64,000 nt of DNA. Origin: a bacterium OL-1 (GTDB lineage: Bacteria > Actinomycetota > Coriobacteriia > Coriobacteriales > Atopobiaceae). Below are positions 6,184 to 43,496 of this stretch, piece after piece. Each line of letters starts with the position of its first letter. Positions within the stretch are counted from its first letter, which is position 1. Location: NCBI GenBank assembly GCA_000752675.2, contig LM994627.1, positions 492,429 to 556,428 of the forward strand, read 5' to 3'. Under the pieces are notes generated by a model that worked only from the letters and a program-made list of their open reading frames with translations, did not search any database and was not told the DNA's origin. Both the position numbers and the translations under genes were made by a program.

Positions 6184-6890
6184 GAACGGCCTCCCGCGAG
6201 CGCGGCCTCAAGCCTGGGATCAAGCGCGCAGATGGCGGCCACGACCTCGTCAACGCTCATCGAGGACGAGTCGATGTGGTGCGCGTCCGGCGCGGGCTTG
6301 AGGGGTGCGGTCTTTCTCGTAGAGTCAAGCTGGTCGCGGCGGTTGAGGTCTGCGAGGATGCGCTCCACCTTAGCAGGATCTGCCGTGGCATTGGCATCCT
6401 TGGCGGCGTCTCCACCCTCGCGCTGCACGGCGCGGCGCAGGGCTCGAGCAGAGGGGTCTGCCGTGAGGAAGACCTTCACGTCTGCATTTGGGAAGACCAC
6501 AGTGCCAATGTCCCTGCCCTCGGCGACGACGTCGCCCGTCTCGCCGTAGGCACGCTGGAGCTCGACCATGGCAGTGCGCACCTCCGGGATGGCCGAGACG
6601 GCAGAGACGTTGCGGTCGACCTCGGGCGTACGAATCTCAGCGGTGACGTCACGGCCGTTGGCGGTGACGGTCTGGCCGGCAGGCGAGGTGCCAAAGGCGA
6701 TGGTGATCGTGCGGGCAACCTGCGTCACGGCAGCCGCGTCAGCGGGGTCGATGCCCTGGCGCAGGCACTCGGCGGTGACGGAGCGATACATGGCACCCGT
6801 ATCGAGGTAGGTGAGGTGGCACCTCTCGGCAATTGCGTGGGCAACGGTAGACTTACCGGACCCTGCGGGCCCGTCGATGGCGACGATCAT
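6180..6890 (-). CDS. cmk: (d)CMP kinase
   Basis: Cmk phosphorylates CMP and dCMP with ATP in the cytosol. The 236-residue product opens with MIVAIDGPAGSGKSTVA (P-loop), followed by YLDTGAMYRSVT, the CMP-binding insert region and the EGRDIGTVVFP motif, all diagnostic. The length is normal. Its ATG overlaps the stop of the preceding phosphatase gene and its stop overlaps plsC. Cmk next to scpA/scpB/rluB and der is a classic Gram-positive and actinobacterial cluster. Confidence 0.95.
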   Translation of the reverse strand: MIVAIDGPAGSGKSTVAHAIAERCHLTYLDTGAMYRSVTAECLRQGIDPADAAAVTQVARTITIAFGTSPAGQTVTANGRDVTAEIRTPEVDRNVSAVSAIPEVRTAMVELQRAYGETGDVVAEGRDIGTVVFPNADVKVFLTADPSARALRRAVQREGGDAAKDANATADPAKVERILADLNRRDQLDSTRKTAPLKPAPDAHHIDSSSMSVDEVVAAICALDPRLEAALAGGRS

Positions 6891-7573
6891 GCGTCCTTCC
6901 TTTCTGCGACGCCCCAGATGTCCCTGAGGTCGTATGGGTTTGGCTTGGTCGAGCGCTCTATGACCTCATCGGGGGTGAGGTTGAACCCGCCAAGGTAGAA
7001 GCTCTTCCCGTTACAGGTGTAGTACGCCGAGCACACGTTTGCCAGATGCACATTCCAGAAGCGGTCATACGGTACATCGTACATGGCGGCGATGAGAATG
7101 CGAGAGAAGCCCCCGTGGGTGACAAGGGCGGTTCTGCCGGCGAGCGGCCTCAGCTCGTCCATAAGATGATTGGCGCGTGCGGTCGCGTGCTCGAAGGACT
7201 CCGCACCGGGCGCGGGAAGCGAGTGCCCGTGCTCGTCAAGCGGCCAGGGGAACTGAGCAGGGCCAGAATTGCTCGCCTCGAAGCGCGTGCCCTCCAGCTC
7301 GCCAAAGTCAAGCTCAACAAGGTCATCGTCAACGCGGACGGGAATGCCCAGGCGCTCCCCTGCCTCCTCGGCAAGGTTGCGACAGCGCGAGAGGGGCGAG
7401 CACCAAATACGCTCGGGGGCAAAAGCCACGAGGGCGTCCACGCCATGCTCGCGCTGCCTCTCGCCACGCGGGGTGAGAGGGACGTCCCTCCTTCCCGAGA
7501 AGAAGTGCTCAGTGTTCGCGGGCGTCTCCGGATGCCTCATGACAAGGATCCGCTGCCTCATGCCAAAGTCCAC
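6887..7573 (-). CDS. histidine phosphatase family protein
   Basis: A 228-residue member of the phosphoglycerate-mutase-like histidine phosphatase superfamily. The phosphorylated histidine lies in LVMRHPETPANT near the N-terminus (RHG is usual; here RHP). The second half has CSPLSRCRNLAE, an acidic ELDFGELEG stretch and the second catalytic histidine in LVTHGGFSR. I chose GTG at 7573 because a GGGGGAGG ribosome binding site ends 9 bases upstream; the internal ATG at 7561 is too far from it. Substrate is unknown; alpha-ribazole phosphatase or a sugar phosphatase are possible. Coupled to rluB and cmk. Confidence 0.82.
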   Translation of the reverse strand: MDFGMRQRILVMRHPETPANTEHFFSGRRDVPLTPRGERQREHGVDALVAFAPERIWCSPLSRCRNLAEEAGERLGIPVRVDDDLVELDFGELEGTRFEASNSGPAQFPWPLDEHGHSLPAPGAESFEHATARANHLMDELRPLAGRTALVTHGGFSRILIAAMYDVPYDRFWNVHLANVCSAYYTCNGKSFYLGGFNLTPDEVIERSTKPNPYDLRDIWGVAERKDA

Positions 7574-37920: not shown

Positions 37921-37950
37921 GTGTGCTACACGTGCATCAACGCCAGGATG

Positions 37951-40707
37951 CTAGGCGACCTTGGCAGGACCGCCGTTGGAGTTGATCTTGGCCTGCGCTG
38001 CCGCAAGACGAGCGATAGGCACGCGGTACGGCGAGCAGGACACGTAGTCGAGGCCGAGGTCATAGTAGACCTGGATGGACTCGGGGTCGCCACCAGTCTC
38101 GCCGCAGACGCCGCAGACGATGTCCGGGTTGGCCTTGTGGCCACCCTCGACGCCCATCTGGACGAGCTTGGCGACGCCGGGGTCGACGGTCGCGAAGGGG
38201 TTCCGCTTGACGATCTTCTTGTCGAGGTAGAGCGGCATGAACGCGGACTCGACGTCGTCGCGGGAGAACCCGAGGCAGGTCTGGGTGAGGTCGTTAGTGC
38301 CGAAGGAGAAGAAGTCGGCGTGCTTGCCGATCTCGTCGGCGGTAATGGCAGCGCGGGGAAGCTCGATCATGGTGCCGATGGGGATCTCGAGCTTGACGCC
38401 CGTCTCCTCCTCGACCTCCTTCAGGGTCTTCTCGGCGCCGGCGCGGACGAGCTCAATCTCGGACTCGAAGGCAACGAGCGGAATCATGATCTCGGGCTTG
38501 GGGTCGAAGCCCTCCTTCTTGAGCTCGGCAGCGGCGCCCGCGATAGCGCGGACCTGCATGACGTTGAGCTCGGGGTAGACGATGCCCAGACGGCAACCAC
38601 GAAGGCCGAGCATGGGGTTGGCCTCCTGGAAGGAGTCGAGCTTGGCGAGCAGGGCGCGCTTCTCGGTGCAGTCCTTGCCGGCACACTCCTCCTTGGTGAT
38701 CTCGACCTCAAGGTCGCGCGGGTTGTCGAGGAACTCGTGCAGAGGGGGATCGAGCAGGCGCACGATGACGGTCTTGCCGTCCATGGCCTTGAACATGCCA
38801 AGGAAGTCACCCTTCTGGGCCTCGCCCAGCTTCTTGAGGGACTCCTGCTTGACGTCGTCGGACTCGGCGAGGATGAAGTTCTGGATGAGCTGCTTGCGCT
38901 CGCCAAGGAACATGTGCTCGGTGCGGTCCAGGCCGATGCCCTCGGCGCCGTTGTCAGCGGAGAGCTGCGCGTCGGCGGGGTTGTCGGCGTTGGCGCGGAC
39001 GCCAATCACGCGGCCGCGAGCGGGATCCTTGCGGACCTCGTCTGCCCAGTCGAGGATGGTCTCGAGGTCGCCGCCGAGCTGCGGACGAACCAGGGGCACC
39101 TCACCCAGGATGACGTCACCCGTGGTGCCGTCGATGGAGATGATGTCACCTTCGTGGAGGACAACGTCGGTGCCAGCAACCTTGCACTCCTTGTTAGGAG
39201 CGTCAATGTGGAGCGCCTCGACGCCGCAGACGCAGGGGGCACCCATGCCACGGGCAATGACGGCCGCGTGGGACGTCTTGCCGCCGTGAGAGGTGAGGAT
39301 GCCCTCAGCAGCAACCATGCCCTTGAGGTCATCGGGCGTGGTCTCCCAACGCACGAGGATGGAGGGCTTGCCGGCCTCCTTGAAGGCCTCGGCGTCAGCA
39401 GAGGAGAACACCACGGCACCGGTAGCAGCACCGGGGGAGGCGTTCAGGCCCTTGGCGAGGACCTCATACTTGGCCTTGGGGTCAAACTGCGGGTGCAGGA
39501 GCTGGTCGAGCTGCTCGGGAGCAACGCGCATGACGGCGGTCTCCCTGGAGATGCGACCCTCCTCGTACATCTGGATGGCAACCTTGAGCGCGGAGAGGGC
39601 GGTACGCTTGCCCACGCGGGTCTGGAGCATCCAGAGCTTGCCCTCCTGGATGGTGAACTCGAGGTCCATCATGTCGGCATAGTGATCCTCGAGGATCTCG
39701 AAGACGTGATAGAGCTCCTTGCCAGCCTCCTCGAGGCCCGGGGTCTTGGGCAGGTCGGAGATGGGCTCGGTGTTGCGGATGCCGGCCACGACGTCCTCGC
39801 CCTGGGCGTTGACCAGGAAGTCGCCGTAGCGCTCGTTGGTGCCGTCGGCGGGGTTGCGCGTGAACGCGACGCCGGTCGCCGAAGTGTCGCCCATGTTGCC
39901 GAAGACCATGCACTGGACGTTGACAGCGGTACCCAGGTCATCAGGGATCTTGTTCTGCTTGCGGTACAGAATGGCGCGCGGGGTATTCCAGGATCCGAAG
40001 ACCGCCTGCTCGGCAAGGCGCAGCTGGAGGTACGGGTCGTGCGGGAACACGGGCTTGCCGTCAACGACAACCTCGGGGTACTTCTCGGGGTCGACGTTGT
40101 CGGAGAAGATCTGCTTGAAGGTGGCGACGAGGTCCTTGAGGTCATCGGCGTTGAGCTCGGTGTCGAGCTTCACACCGCGCTCGGCCTTCTTGGCGTTGAT
40201 GGCATCCTCGAAGAGCTGGCCGTCGACGCCCATGACGACGTCCGAGAACATCTGGACGAAGCGGCGGTAGGAGTCGTAGCCAAAGCGGGGGTTGCCGGTC
40301 TTCTTGATGAGACCCTGGACAGAGTCGTCGTTGAGGCCAAGGTTAAGGACGGTGTCCATCATGCCGGGCATGGAGAAGGGGGCGCCGGAGCGAACGGAGA
40401 CGAGTAGCGGGTCGTCCTTGTCGCCGAGCTTCTTGCCCATGCGCTTCTCGAGGTCCTTGCGGTAGACGTCAATCTCGTCAAGAACGCCGTCGGGCCAGAC
40501 GTTACCAGCGGACGAGTAAGCGACGCAGGTCTGGCAGGTGATGGAGAATCCCGGAGGAACGGGAAGGCCGATGTTGGCCATCTCCGCCAGGTTGGCGCCC
40601 TTGCCGCCGGTGATCCACTTCGCCTCGTCGACGGTAGCGCCGGCAACTTCGGTCACGTTGTTGCCGTTCTCGTCCTTTCCGAAGCGGTACACGTGCTTCT
40701 CAGACAT
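37951..40707 (-). CDS. ppdK: pyruvate, phosphate dikinase
   Basis: PPDK interconverts pyruvate + ATP + Pi and PEP + AMP + PPi; in anaerobes it often runs glycolytically to make ATP. The 918-residue product has the ATP-grasp domain (GGKGANLAEMANIGLPVPPGF, SGAPFSMPGMMDTVLNLG), the phosphohistidine domain with GGKTSHAAVIARGMG (catalytic His, with the Thr two residues before it that is the regulatory phosphorylation site) and the C-terminal PEP-binding barrel (LRGCRLGI, GTNDLTQT, CGETGGDPE). ATG at 40707 has GGGGAG just upstream. A structured leader and a terminator separate it from the upstream truncated regulator gene. Confidence 0.97.
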   Translation of the reverse strand: MSEKHVYRFGKDENGNNVTEVAGATVDEAKWITGGKGANLAEMANIGLPVPPGFSITCQTCVAYSSAGNVWPDGVLDEIDVYRKDLEKRMGKKLGDKDDPLLVSVRSGAPFSMPGMMDTVLNLGLNDDSVQGLIKKTGNPRFGYDSYRRFVQMFSDVVMGVDGQLFEDAINAKKAERGVKLDTELNADDLKDLVATFKQIFSDNVDPEKYPEVVVDGKPVFPHDPYLQLRLAEQAVFGSWNTPRAILYRKQNKIPDDLGTAVNVQCMVFGNMGDTSATGVAFTRNPADGTNERYGDFLVNAQGEDVVAGIRNTEPISDLPKTPGLEEAGKELYHVFEILEDHYADMMDLEFTIQEGKLWMLQTRVGKRTALSALKVAIQMYEEGRISRETAVMRVAPEQLDQLLHPQFDPKAKYEVLAKGLNASPGAATGAVVFSSADAEAFKEAGKPSILVRWETTPDDLKGMVAAEGILTSHGGKTSHAAVIARGMGAPCVCGVEALHIDAPNKECKVAGTDVVLHEGDIISIDGTTGDVILGEVPLVRPQLGGDLETILDWADEVRKDPARGRVIGVRANADNPADAQLSADNGAEGIGLDRTEHMFLGERKQLIQNFILAESDDVKQESLKKLGEAQKGDFLGMFKAMDGKTVIVRLLDPPLHEFLDNPRDLEVEITKEECAGKDCTEKRALLAKLDSFQEANPMLGLRGCRLGIVYPELNVMQVRAIAGAAAELKKEGFDPKPEIMIPLVAFESEIELVRAGAEKTLKEVEEETGVKLEIPIGTMIELPRAAITADEIGKHADFFSFGTNDLTQTCLGFSRDDVESAFMPLYLDKKIVKRNPFATVDPGVAKLVQMGVEGGHKANPDIVCGVCGETGGDPESIQVYYDLGLDYVSCSPYRVPIARLAAAQAKINSNGGPAKVA

Positions 40708-40868: not shown

Positions 40869-40902
40869 AACAAAATGGGGGCCAGACGTGAGTCTAGCCC
40901 CC
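40869..40902 (-). terminator. terminator after the truncated PPDK regulator gene
   Basis: Stem GGGGGCTAGAC / GTCTGGCCCCC with loop TCAC (11 pairs, one U-G), followed by ATTTTGTT. It ends the rpsP-to-glyS transcription unit and isolates ppdK. Confidence 0.88.
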
Positions 40903-40931: not shown

Positions 40932-41336
40932 CTACTCGTTCGAAGCCGGGTGCTCCGAGAAAGTGGCGCCAATGGCGTGGCTCGGCTCCTCGCCAGTGAG
41001 CGTGGAGATGACCGTCACGGCAGGCCCGAGCAGGTCGATGGAGGGAATGCCCCTCCTGTCGAGCTCGCGGCGAATCTCGCGGCGGAGCTGGCCGTTGGCA
41101 AACGTGTGGAAGACGGCGCTTGGCCTCTCTGGGTCGAAGTTCTTGTCGAAATAGTCTCTTACCTGCTCGACGCTCTCGACACCAGACACACGAATGATCT
41201 CGACGGAGCCATCGCCAAACTGCGCGGCGGCAGCCTCCACAACGGCCTTTGCGGTCTCACCACGGGCATCAGAGAGCACGTAGATGGCAGGGACAACGTG
41301 GCCGAAAACATCATCGTCCAGATCAAGTTTCCTCAT
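40932..41336 (-). CDS. half-length PPDK regulatory protein (PSRP/DUF299) homologue
   Basis: PSRP is a bifunctional kinase/pyrophosphorylase that inactivates and reactivates PPDK by threonine phosphorylation. This 134-residue product aligns with only the N-terminal half: IYVLSDARGETAKAVVEAAAAQFG and later SIDLLGPAVTVISTLTGEEPS, as in Bacillus YqfL. The usual C-terminal half with the GVSRTSKTP nucleotide-binding loop is missing. The stop codon is followed at once by a terminator, so no frameshifted remainder exists here. It lies 63 bases after glyS and directly upstream of ppdK. It may be a decayed gene or a non-catalytic PPDK-binding domain. ATG at 41336 fits the homologues. Confidence 0.72.
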   Translation of the reverse strand: MRKLDLDDDVFGHVVPAIYVLSDARGETAKAVVEAAAAQFGDGSVEIIRVSGVESVEQVRDYFDKNFDPERPSAVFHTFANGQLRREIRRELDRRGIPSIDLLGPAVTVISTLTGEEPSHAIGATFSEHPASNE

Positions 41337-41399
41337 AGTCGATCCTCCCAAGTGACCCAATCGTGCGGGGACGTTGCAGCAAGTGTAACCGCTCTTACC

Positions 41400-43496
41400 C
41401 TACTTTCGCTTCGAAAGTGCGCCAATATCGGCGACGTCACCAAAGACGCCAGCGAAACGGTTGAGAAGGCGCAGCCTGTTGTCCCTCACGGTCGGGTCGG
41501 GGTCCATGACAAGAACATCAGTGAAGAAGCGGTCGATGGGGCCGCGGAGGCCAGCCAGGGCCTCGCAGGCGGCGTCGAAGTCACCAGCGGCCAGGGCAGC
41601 CGAGACGGCCTTCTCGCCCTTCTCGCAGGCGGCGAGAAGGGCCTTCTCCGCATCCCCAAGGACACTTGAGTCGACGTTGGTGCCGAGCGACGCGTTGGCA
41701 AGGTGGGCGGCGCGGGCATAGGCCGTGGCTAGGTCCTCGAAGAGCTCCGGGCTCTCGGAGCGAGCGCGGTCCAGGGCTGCGGCGCGACGGACGAACTCAT
41801 CGGGGTCGATGACGCCTACGGCGCCCACGGCCTCGATGGCGTCGGGCGCGATGCCCTCGTCCTTGGCGATGGCAGCAAGACGACCCTGGAAGAAGGCGGC
41901 CACGGAAGAGGCAGCCTTCTGGGCGTCAAACTCGATGCCCCGCTCGGCGTAGGACGCAAGGGCAAGCTCGATGAGCGGAAGCAGGTGCACGGCAGGAAGC
42001 GTGCGCAGCATGGCAATCATGCCAATGGCAGCGCGTCGAACGGCAAATGGGTCTGAGGAGCCGGTGGGCGGCTCGTCGATGGCGAAGATGCCGCACACGG
42101 TGTCAAGCTTATCCGCAATGGCAACGCACTTGCCCACGATGCCAGAGGGGAGCTCGTCGCCGGCAAAGCGCGGACGGTAGTGCTCGCGGATGGCGTCACA
42201 GACCTCCTGGTCCTCGCCGGCTGCCTTGGCGTAGTAGCCGCCCATGACGCCCTGCTGGTTGGTGAACTCGACCACCGCCTGGCTCACGAGGTCTGCCTTA
42301 GCGAGGTGTGCTGCGCGCTTGGCAAGACCGCAGGTGCGCTCGTCGGCGCCGGCCGCCTTTGCCACGGCCTCGGAAAGCACCTCCATACGCGTGACCTTCT
42401 GGCGAACAGTGCCGAGCTTCTCCTGGAAGACAACGGTACCCAGGCGCTCAACGAACTCGTCCATGGGGACCTTCAGATCCTCCTCATAGAAGAACTTGGC
42501 GTCATCGAGGCGGGCGCGCACGACGCGCTCGTTGCCGTCGACCACGGTTGCGGAGACCTTGGGGTCTGCGTTCGAGACCACAACGAACTCTCGCGTGAGG
42601 TTGCCCTCAGCGTCATAGACGGGGAAGTAGCGCTGGTTGGAGAGCATGGACTCGCAGATGATCTCGTGCGGGACCTTGAGGAACTCCTCGTCGAAGGTGC
42701 CAACCAGGACCGTGGGCCACTCGCAGAGGTTCACGACCTCGTCAAGCGTGCGCTTGGGGGTGTCCACGCGACAACCGGGGCGCTCGGCCTCAACCTGATG
42801 GATGCCCTCGAGGATGGTGGCACGGCGCTCGTCCTCGAGCAGCACGCCGTTCTCGCGCAGCACGTCGGCATAGGCGGCAGGGCTCTTGACCGCGTGGTCG
42901 CCAGCGCCAAGTACGCGGTGCCCGCGCGTGGTGCCGGCGCTCGTGACGTCGGCGTAGCTCGCAGGCACAACGTCAGACCCGAGAAGGGCGCAGATCCAGC
43001 GGATGGGACGCACGAAGGTCTGGTGCTCGGAACCCCAGCGCTGGCTTCTGTAGTTGGGCCACTCGATGGACCCGATGACCTGCTCGGAGAGGGTGGAGAG
43101 GATCGGCGTTGCAGGGCGCGCGTCAACGTGCTTCTCGGCAAAGACGTACTCGCGGCCGTCGGAGTCCACTCGGCGCGCAAGCTGGGAGGCATCGACGCCA
43201 AACTTGCGGGCAAAGCCCTGGGCCGCCTTGGTGGGGGCGCCGTTGGCGTCAAAGGCGATGCTGGCCGCGGGGCCGCGCTTGACCTCGTTGAGCTCCTCGG
43301 TTGCAAGGGCAACGTCATGGACGTAGGCAACGAGCCTTCTCGGCGTCTGGTGTGTCTCCACCTTGCCGTGAGCTAGGCCGGCCTCGTCCAGCCCCTTGCG
43401 AACCAGCTCTCCGAGCTGCACCACAGCGTGGTTGAGAGGTGCGGACGGCATCTCCTCGCAGCCAATCTCGAGCAGGAAGTCCTTGGTCTCGGCCAT
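41400..43496 (-). CDS. glyS: glycyl-tRNA synthetase beta subunit
   Basis: The beta subunit of the tetrameric bacterial GlyRS holds the tRNA-binding and editing-like domains. The 698-residue product begins with FLLEIGCEEMPSAPLNHAV, has the B3/B4-like region TPRRLVAYVHDVA, the HD-like domain (RAAHLAKADLVSQAVVEFTNQQGVMGGYYA) and a C-terminal anticodon-binding domain (FFTDVLVMDPDPTVRDNRLRLL). It starts directly after glyQ, the two genes being adjoining without a gap. Length is normal. Confidence 0.97.
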   Translation of the reverse strand: MAETKDFLLEIGCEEMPSAPLNHAVVQLGELVRKGLDEAGLAHGKVETHQTPRRLVAYVHDVALATEELNEVKRGPAASIAFDANGAPTKAAQGFARKFGVDASQLARRVDSDGREYVFAEKHVDARPATPILSTLSEQVIGSIEWPNYRSQRWGSEHQTFVRPIRWICALLGSDVVPASYADVTSAGTTRGHRVLGAGDHAVKSPAAYADVLRENGVLLEDERRATILEGIHQVEAERPGCRVDTPKRTLDEVVNLCEWPTVLVGTFDEEFLKVPHEIICESMLSNQRYFPVYDAEGNLTREFVVVSNADPKVSATVVDGNERVVRARLDDAKFFYEEDLKVPMDEFVERLGTVVFQEKLGTVRQKVTRMEVLSEAVAKAAGADERTCGLAKRAAHLAKADLVSQAVVEFTNQQGVMGGYYAKAAGEDQEVCDAIREHYRPRFAGDELPSGIVGKCVAIADKLDTVCGIFAIDEPPTGSSDPFAVRRAAIGMIAMLRTLPAVHLLPLIELALASYAERGIEFDAQKAASSVAAFFQGRLAAIAKDEGIAPDAIEAVGAVGVIDPDEFVRRAAALDRARSESPELFEDLATAYARAAHLANASLGTNVDSSVLGDAEKALLAACEKGEKAVSAALAAGDFDAACEALAGLRGPIDRFFTDVLVMDPDPTVRDNRLRLLNRFAGVFGDVADIGALSKRK

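Follow-up and report, generated by a model that had tools for sequence, protein, structure and literature searches.

The window, i.e. the whole stretch of 64,000 nucleotides analysed here, encodes between glyS and ppdK a short protein that corresponds to the N-terminal half of PSRP/PDRP, a regulator of pyruvate phosphate dikinase (PPDK). Hereafter, this protein and its relatives of the same form are referred to as halves. The features of the locus are as follows.

41400–43496, minus strand: glyS (glycyl-tRNA synthetase beta subunit), co-directional, 63 bp upstream of the half
41250–41273, minus strand: phosphate-loop-like motif SDARGETA, residues 22–29 of the half, with Arg25 typical of halves
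40932–41336, minus strand: stand-alone N-terminal half of PSRP/PDRP, 134 aa, Pfam PF03618 positions 1–106 of 256
40877–40902, minus strand: terminator-like hairpin 3′ of the half, with 11 pairs (eight GC) and the tail ATTTTGTTAC
39268–39276, minus strand: T-S-H of PPDK (PSRP-modified Thr and catalytic His), within GGKTSHAAV
37951–40707, minus strand: ppdK, pyruvate phosphate dikinase, likely ATG at 40707 (listed ORF from GTG 40752)

The open reading frame of the half starts with an ATG at 41336, and the sequence GGGAGG, located 7 nt upstream (41344–41349), resembles a ribosome-binding site. As proposed in the original prediction, the product is the first half of PSRP, matching the PF03618 profile of Pfam with an E-value of 1.5e-18. 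The genome (2.46 Mb, 99% complete) has no second match to PF03618. The prediction had also placed the half beside ppdK. Indeed, ppdK is the next gene downstream, but glyS is closer: about 224 bp, terminator included, separate the half from the ATG of ppdK, versus 63 bp to glyS. Judging by this spacing, the half looks like the last gene of a glyS unit. The hairpin begins 29 bases beyond the stop codon and is one of two terminator-like sites in the region, compared to a mean of 0.6 in shuffled sequences; the other site is on the plus strand and has 7 pairs. An 828-codon open frame antisense to ppdK (window positions 37921–40407, plus strand) is probably a by-product of GC-rich codon use rather than a gene.

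PSRP/PDRP proteins (PF03618, DUF299) include E. coli PpsR, maize PDRP1 and Bacillus YqfL. The half shares with them a homologous N-domain and occupies the same glyS-PSRP-ppdK locus as its full-length relatives, and the genome encodes the target enzyme with a threonine two residues before the catalytic histidine (His 495, counting from the GTG of the ORF), as had been predicted. Unlike PSRP, it lacks the catalytic C-domain with a P-loop of the GVSR(T/S)SKTP type, none of which was found in its genome, and it scores 63.1 bits on NCBIfam NF003742, for which the curated cut-off is 225. Because the catalytic domain is absent, the kinase/pyrophosphorylase activity of PSRP is expected to be absent as well; since the defining feature is missing, the half is, on the basis of its sequence, homologous to PSRP yet not classed as one. 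The T-x-H motif is catalytic and common to PEP-utilising enzymes in general, which weakens any argument from the retained threonine. GGKTSH is kept in the PPDKs of all scored loci with halves (113/113) and with full-length genes (17/17), counts which include duplicates and to which 23 half-locus and 16 full-locus PPDKs, being cut or mis-started fragments, do not contribute. Thus, retention of the motif is no demonstration of regulation, and we dropped it as proof, since it is invariant in every scored PPDK whether the neighbour is full-length or a half.

Distribution of halves and the missing catalytic domain

Among 140 Atopobiaceae genomes, 131 match PF03618, 15 over the full model and 116 at the half level only, whereas nine have no match. 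The half-level matches fall within about positions 1–133 of 256 among the matches listed; two of the 116 genomes are outside that list, namely G075, which has a half according to another search, and G083, with an E-value of 3.5e-7. The figure of 116 refers to genomes and not to halves at the glyS locus, because the inspected matches of G129 and G037 are paralogues. By genus code, half-only genomes occur in 22 genera and full-length genes in 10. The half is found in named strains of Olsenella, Thermophilibacter, Parafannyhessea, Lancefieldella and Tractidigestivibacter. Judging by such named relatives, the window belongs to Atopobiaceae and is close to Tractidigestivibacter, its half being 98% identical to those of T. 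scatoligenes and T. montrealensis. G072, one of the nine genomes without PF03618, has a weak match to the paralogue profile (E 5.1e-9). G030, also of this family (1.0 Mb, 94% complete), encodes PPDK and has no PF03618 match. Outside Atopobiaceae, matches in the 396 genomes of the class cover the full model or nearly so, among those listed. In the phylum set (396 genomes), 53 match, eight of them with halves, all from Atopobiaceae, and 45 at full or nearly full length. All seven congeners of the window genome are half-only, and the full-length matches came from other genera only. A local lesion next to intact orthologues in close relatives is therefore not what we found, and a local deletion or assembly gap is ruled out by the recurrence of the same form in 7/7 congeners and, by match, in 116/140 family genomes.

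Halves at the main locus are 125–137 aa long and all end after the same LTG-x-x-P...G stretch (these counts, too, contain duplicates, some genomes appearing under two ids). The exceptions are L183, whose 159 aa are counted from a possible start further upstream, and L171, truncated at the end of its contig. Most half loci and the full-length loci of the family have the order glyS-PSRP-ppdK, and in other families of the class (L106–L111) a full-length gene likewise lies between glyS and ppdK. At L042, L045 and L046 the half stays at glyS, with ppdK elsewhere in the genome. G059 and G060 have a full-length gene and ppdK elsewhere; in L105 (G007), there is no ppdK within the 9 kb examined. The full-length PSRPs of G059 and G060 (L101, L102) contain the catalytic P-loop GLSGSAKTPLAMYL instead of GVSRTSKTPLSMYL and have a shorter C-half. 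A further full-length PSRP, with the loop ADHTGDT, is found between glyS and ppdK in G005 (L011/L103) and groups with half-bearing species. Its contig has 3956 bp and comes from an assembly with 6% contamination, and its placement inside the half clade may reflect misbinning, transfer or retention.

Two-domain enzymes occur in split versions in general, and the C-half could in principle be encoded elsewhere or be reached through a frameshift or stop read-through. We searched six-frame translations of the 140 family genomes with a C-half profile. Significant matches (E 5.0e-79 to 5.5e-57) were obtained in exactly the 15 full-length genomes, whereas every other match had an E-value of at least 0.087 and the window genome (G000) yielded none at E≤1. 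Consequently, no split partner was found, and a split gene is ruled out by this profile over the 140 genomes; together with the terminator right after the stop of the half, this leaves a split enzyme with practically zero probability. The same results uphold three statements of the original prediction, namely that the nucleotide-binding C-terminal half is missing, that a terminator follows the stop codon and that no shifted remainder is present.

Is the PF03618 family linked to PPDK? It is absent from 62 of the 396 class genomes, 20 of which were examined for PPDK. In fourteen, the only PPDK matches are weak (E 1.2e-24 to 6.3e-21) and, in our reading, due to PTS enzyme I; another lacks any match, four encode a full-length PPDK and one a piece at a contig end. 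Since 15 of the 20 listed genomes are without a clear PPDK, the family appears mostly to follow PPDK across the class, with exceptions; since the remaining five have PPDK, the PF03618 regulator is not obligatory. PPDK without PF03618 is found in G030, G276, G289 and G292. Among 13 genomes with no PPDK match, PF03618 is present in G068, G242, G384 and G403, all fragmented assemblies. Within PPDK itself, 28 columns separate the main half clade (71 rows) from six Atopobiaceae full-length rows, with 21 of them in the 430 columns of the N-terminal part and seven in the following 503; seven separating columns cluster at residues 178–196 (counted from GTG 40752). Co-evolution of PPDK with the half is a lead only, because clade and function are inseparable in this comparison and regional variability is uncontrolled, so a clade effect may explain the pattern.

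Selection, conserved residues and the number of truncations

The half is under strong purifying selection. Within the genus, its median dN/dS is 0.032, compared to 0.014 for ppdK, 0.057 for glyS and 0.049 for dgt (21 pairs each, 14 for dgt). In the wider clade, the medians are 0.141, 0.136, 0.288 and 0.146, respectively (91 pairs each). The values were calculated by the simple Nei-Gojobori method, so their ranking weighs more than the figures. An alignment of 62 rows, four of them full-length N-domains, has 24 invariant columns, S22, D23, G26, H77, T78, D101, G104 and P105 among others. In the 93 halves tabulated by residue, S22, D23, G26, T28, H77, T78, R85, R89, D101, G104 and P105 are invariant. 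Thus, the SDxxGxT phosphate-loop motif after strand 1 (S22, D23, G26, T28) is present in 93/93 aligned halves, a set for which Thr or Ser was required at position 28 and which, like the N-domain tree, omits L134 with its Met28. This conservation argues against a decaying remnant, in which the catalytic half would be gone, the rest on its way out and PPDK simply unregulated. Such decay would fit the lack of a detectable C-half in half-only genomes and the few PPDK genomes devoid of PF03618, but with a frame of 125–137 aa in all main-locus halves except two, and with half-only genomes in 22 genera, we consider it very improbable.

Some positions distinguish halves from the Atopobiaceae full-length rows, although the rows are related and the figures are counts, not independent events. 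Position 25, within the phosphate loop, is Arg in 87/93 halves, with Glu in L040 and L041 and four further halves also lacking Arg, whereas the full-length rows have Leu (12/13) or Thr (1/13) and never Arg. Arg25 may go back to a single ancestral change. Arg is also found at position 86 in 91/93 halves versus 4/13 full-length rows. Lys27 occurs in 20/93 halves (e.g. RGKT, CGKT) and in 0/13 full-length N-domains of the family; because it recalls the SKT of the catalytic-domain loop, one could imagine that halves regained phosphotransfer through this residue and act as one-domain kinases or phosphorylases. This appears improbable, since Lys27 is a minority state, the window protein has Glu27 and the catalytic residues named for maize PDRP are in the C-domain, the part missing here. 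In favour of the idea, both domains of maize PDRP are described as sharing one fold and containing P-loops in a review (PMC9138534).

To trace the loss of the C-half, we used a set of 94 distinct halves adjoining a glyS of at least 450 aa, deduplicated by half and glyS sequence. In a 113-row tree of glyS and PPDK, with 94 half loci and 19 full-length loci, the state requires four changes and the starred branches force three. Forcing all halves into a single clade worsens the fit of a quick tree of 46 rows (p-AU 0.012), and still does so once L042, with its long branch, and the doubtful L011 are removed (43 rows, two changes, p-AU 0.034). These AU tests are based on quick LG+G4 trees of 46 and 43 rows chosen out of the 113 after the full tree had been seen. 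Halves are thus likely of more than one origin, as judged from these trees, and the loss of the C-half in L040 and L041 (genus code g9) was probably an event separate from that in the main clade, because a single half clade fits worse. The N-domain gene tree (110 columns, 22/124 inner branches starred) can nevertheless be reconciled with a single origin for the main halves, and the number of truncations is therefore uncertain.

Paralogous halves in other operons

Second-copy halves form two sets. Group 3 comprises 15 loci in 15 genomes (L057, L071, L075, L087, L090, L192, L194–L201, L203). In all of them a glycyl-radical-enzyme (GRE) activase gene precedes the half by no more than about 100 bp, with a divergent glycyl radical enzyme gene nearby (15/15) and a fructose-6-phosphate-aldolase-like gene in 13/15, the other two loci being cut by contig ends. 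NCBIfam models identified these three neighbours on L075 (PFLE_PFLC, PFL2-3 and fsa/talC), and those at the other loci were assigned by similarity. Group 2 has five distinct loci (L022/L208, which are one locus, L043, L049, L053 and L060), all in clusters with deoC, a gene named by NCBIfam on L049. The half is within about 170 bp after deoC in four of them; at L049, it is located across a divergent GntR-type gene from deoC. A GntR-type regulator is found in 4/5 clusters, some of which also contain a transaldolase-like or DUF218-like gene. In G019, the main locus encodes a full-length PSRP and the genome also contains a group 2 half; a stand-alone half and the intact regulator can thus occur together.

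Because many Atopobiaceae keep the half and its relatives adjoin other metabolic enzymes, the half probably functions as a small independent regulator rather than being a broken gene. The original prediction had left a choice between a truncated regulator with PPDK unregulated and a half that is non-catalytic and has taken on a new role. The conservation, the low dN/dS, the likely multiple origins and the paralogues in other operons favour the second option over the first.

Predicted structure and possible roles

Modelled on its own, the half forms one alpha/beta domain of four strands, each followed by a helix (AlphaFold2, 62 rows; pLDDT 87.8, pTM 0.78). The SDARGETA loop follows the strand of residues 17–22, and according to the secondary structure of the model, strands 1, 3 and 4 have the invariant residues at their ends and in the loops or helix starts that follow. 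In such folds, strand ends and the loops after them are the usual phosphate or nucleotide site. The only PDB match with a Foldseek E-value below 0.001 is 5d0n, entitled 'maize PDRP bound with AMP' (E 2.4e-6). Residues 126–264 of 5d0n, the N-domain region, are also the best fold match of the half, with a VIA Z of 14.3 over 124 residues and an rmsd of 5.1; the next row has a Z of 8.6. The lower matches (Z 6–8.6) include SGNH esterases, Argonaute MID regions and receiver domains, and may reflect a mere common arrangement. Jiang et al. in 2016 are said to have located the AMP in the N-domain of maize PDRP. According to a review (PMC9138534), the C-domain of maize PDRP has a single active site for both activities and an allosteric role is proposed for the N-domain. 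By analogy with maize PDRP as described there, SDARGETA may serve as a phosphate loop. 'New' is too strong a word for the role of the half at the glyS-ppdK locus. Because the N-domain of maize PDRP has itself been proposed to be allosteric (PMC9138534), the half may equally well have retained an ancestral role after the kinase was lost.

We suggest, at roughly even chances, that the half has no catalytic activity and tunes PPDK by binding, in response to a nucleotide or phosphate. A PSRP/PDRP ancestor would have lost its catalytic C-terminal half and given rise to a functional one-domain protein. The retained N-domain would have, as in maize PDRP, the fold and P-loop of the catalytic domain while lying outside the active site. 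It could bind an adenine nucleotide, AMP being the ligand in the title of 5d0n, or phosphate, and the bound form might then attach to PPDK and adjust its activity with no covalent modification. Small stand-alone nucleotide-binding proteins that regulate metabolism allosterically include PII proteins and c-di-AMP receptors such as DarB. The half would resemble these only in its manner of working (small, single-domain, nucleotide-responsive, target-binding), with no kinship implied. The computed support for this view comprises the conservation of the half, the lack of a C-half match in half-only genomes, the purifying selection, the predicted fold, the conserved loop with its Arg25, the linkage to ppdK in most loci and the paralogues in operons of other enzymes. 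Against it stand the terminator before ppdK and the short distance to glyS, the location of ppdK elsewhere in the genomes of L042, L045 and L046, the PPDK genomes without PF03618, the four fragmented assemblies with PF03618 and no PPDK match, and the paralogues beside other enzymes, which allow a role unrelated to PPDK.

The main rival is a partner other than PPDK, which we regard as possible though on the doubtful side. Here, the half might, for example, belong functionally to the glyS unit or respond to metabolites in general; its proximity to ppdK would be inherited from the full-length ancestor. The half is nearer glyS than ppdK, with the terminator in between, it remains at glyS in the three loci with ppdK elsewhere, and paralogues adjoin the GRE activase or sit in deoC clusters, as this alternative would have it. 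However, the family mostly follows PPDK, given that 15/20 listed PF03618-less class genomes are also without a clear PPDK, and the maize N-domain belongs to a PPDK regulator.

Whether the half tunes PPDK or another partner, phosphorylation of the PPDK threonine in the manner of PSRP should be impossible in half-only genomes, because the catalytic domain is gone, unless an unrelated kinase has taken it over. In half-only Atopobiaceae, the PF03618 homologue thus cannot be the known kinase/phosphorylase and the textbook control of PPDK should be absent, while PPDK stays. Evolution has in effect dissected the domains of PSRP, probably more than once. Among the titles listed from the open-licence PMC literature, none has a stand-alone PSRP N-half as its subject. 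The halves of named strains, proteins of about 130 residues, are suited to measuring the binding of nucleotides and PPDK. More tentatively, the N-domain of PSRP could be a self-sufficient nucleotide-responsive regulator, with a one-domain family in Atopobiaceae that acts non-covalently on different enzymes, namely on PPDK from the glyS-ppdK locus, on a glycyl radical enzyme or the corresponding activase in group 3 and on the deoxyribose-phosphate aldolase cluster in group 2; the paralogues beside the glycyl radical enzyme and deoC yield specific and testable predictions of partners. The 17 strongest matches to the paralogue groups in the 396 class genomes (E <1e-47) are all from Atopobiaceae. 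Divergent halves with other neighbours occur at L089 (6491–6883), L205 (about 6493–6879) and L206 (about 6648–7058), and at L089 a Y_phosphatase3 gene is located within 2 kb of the half.
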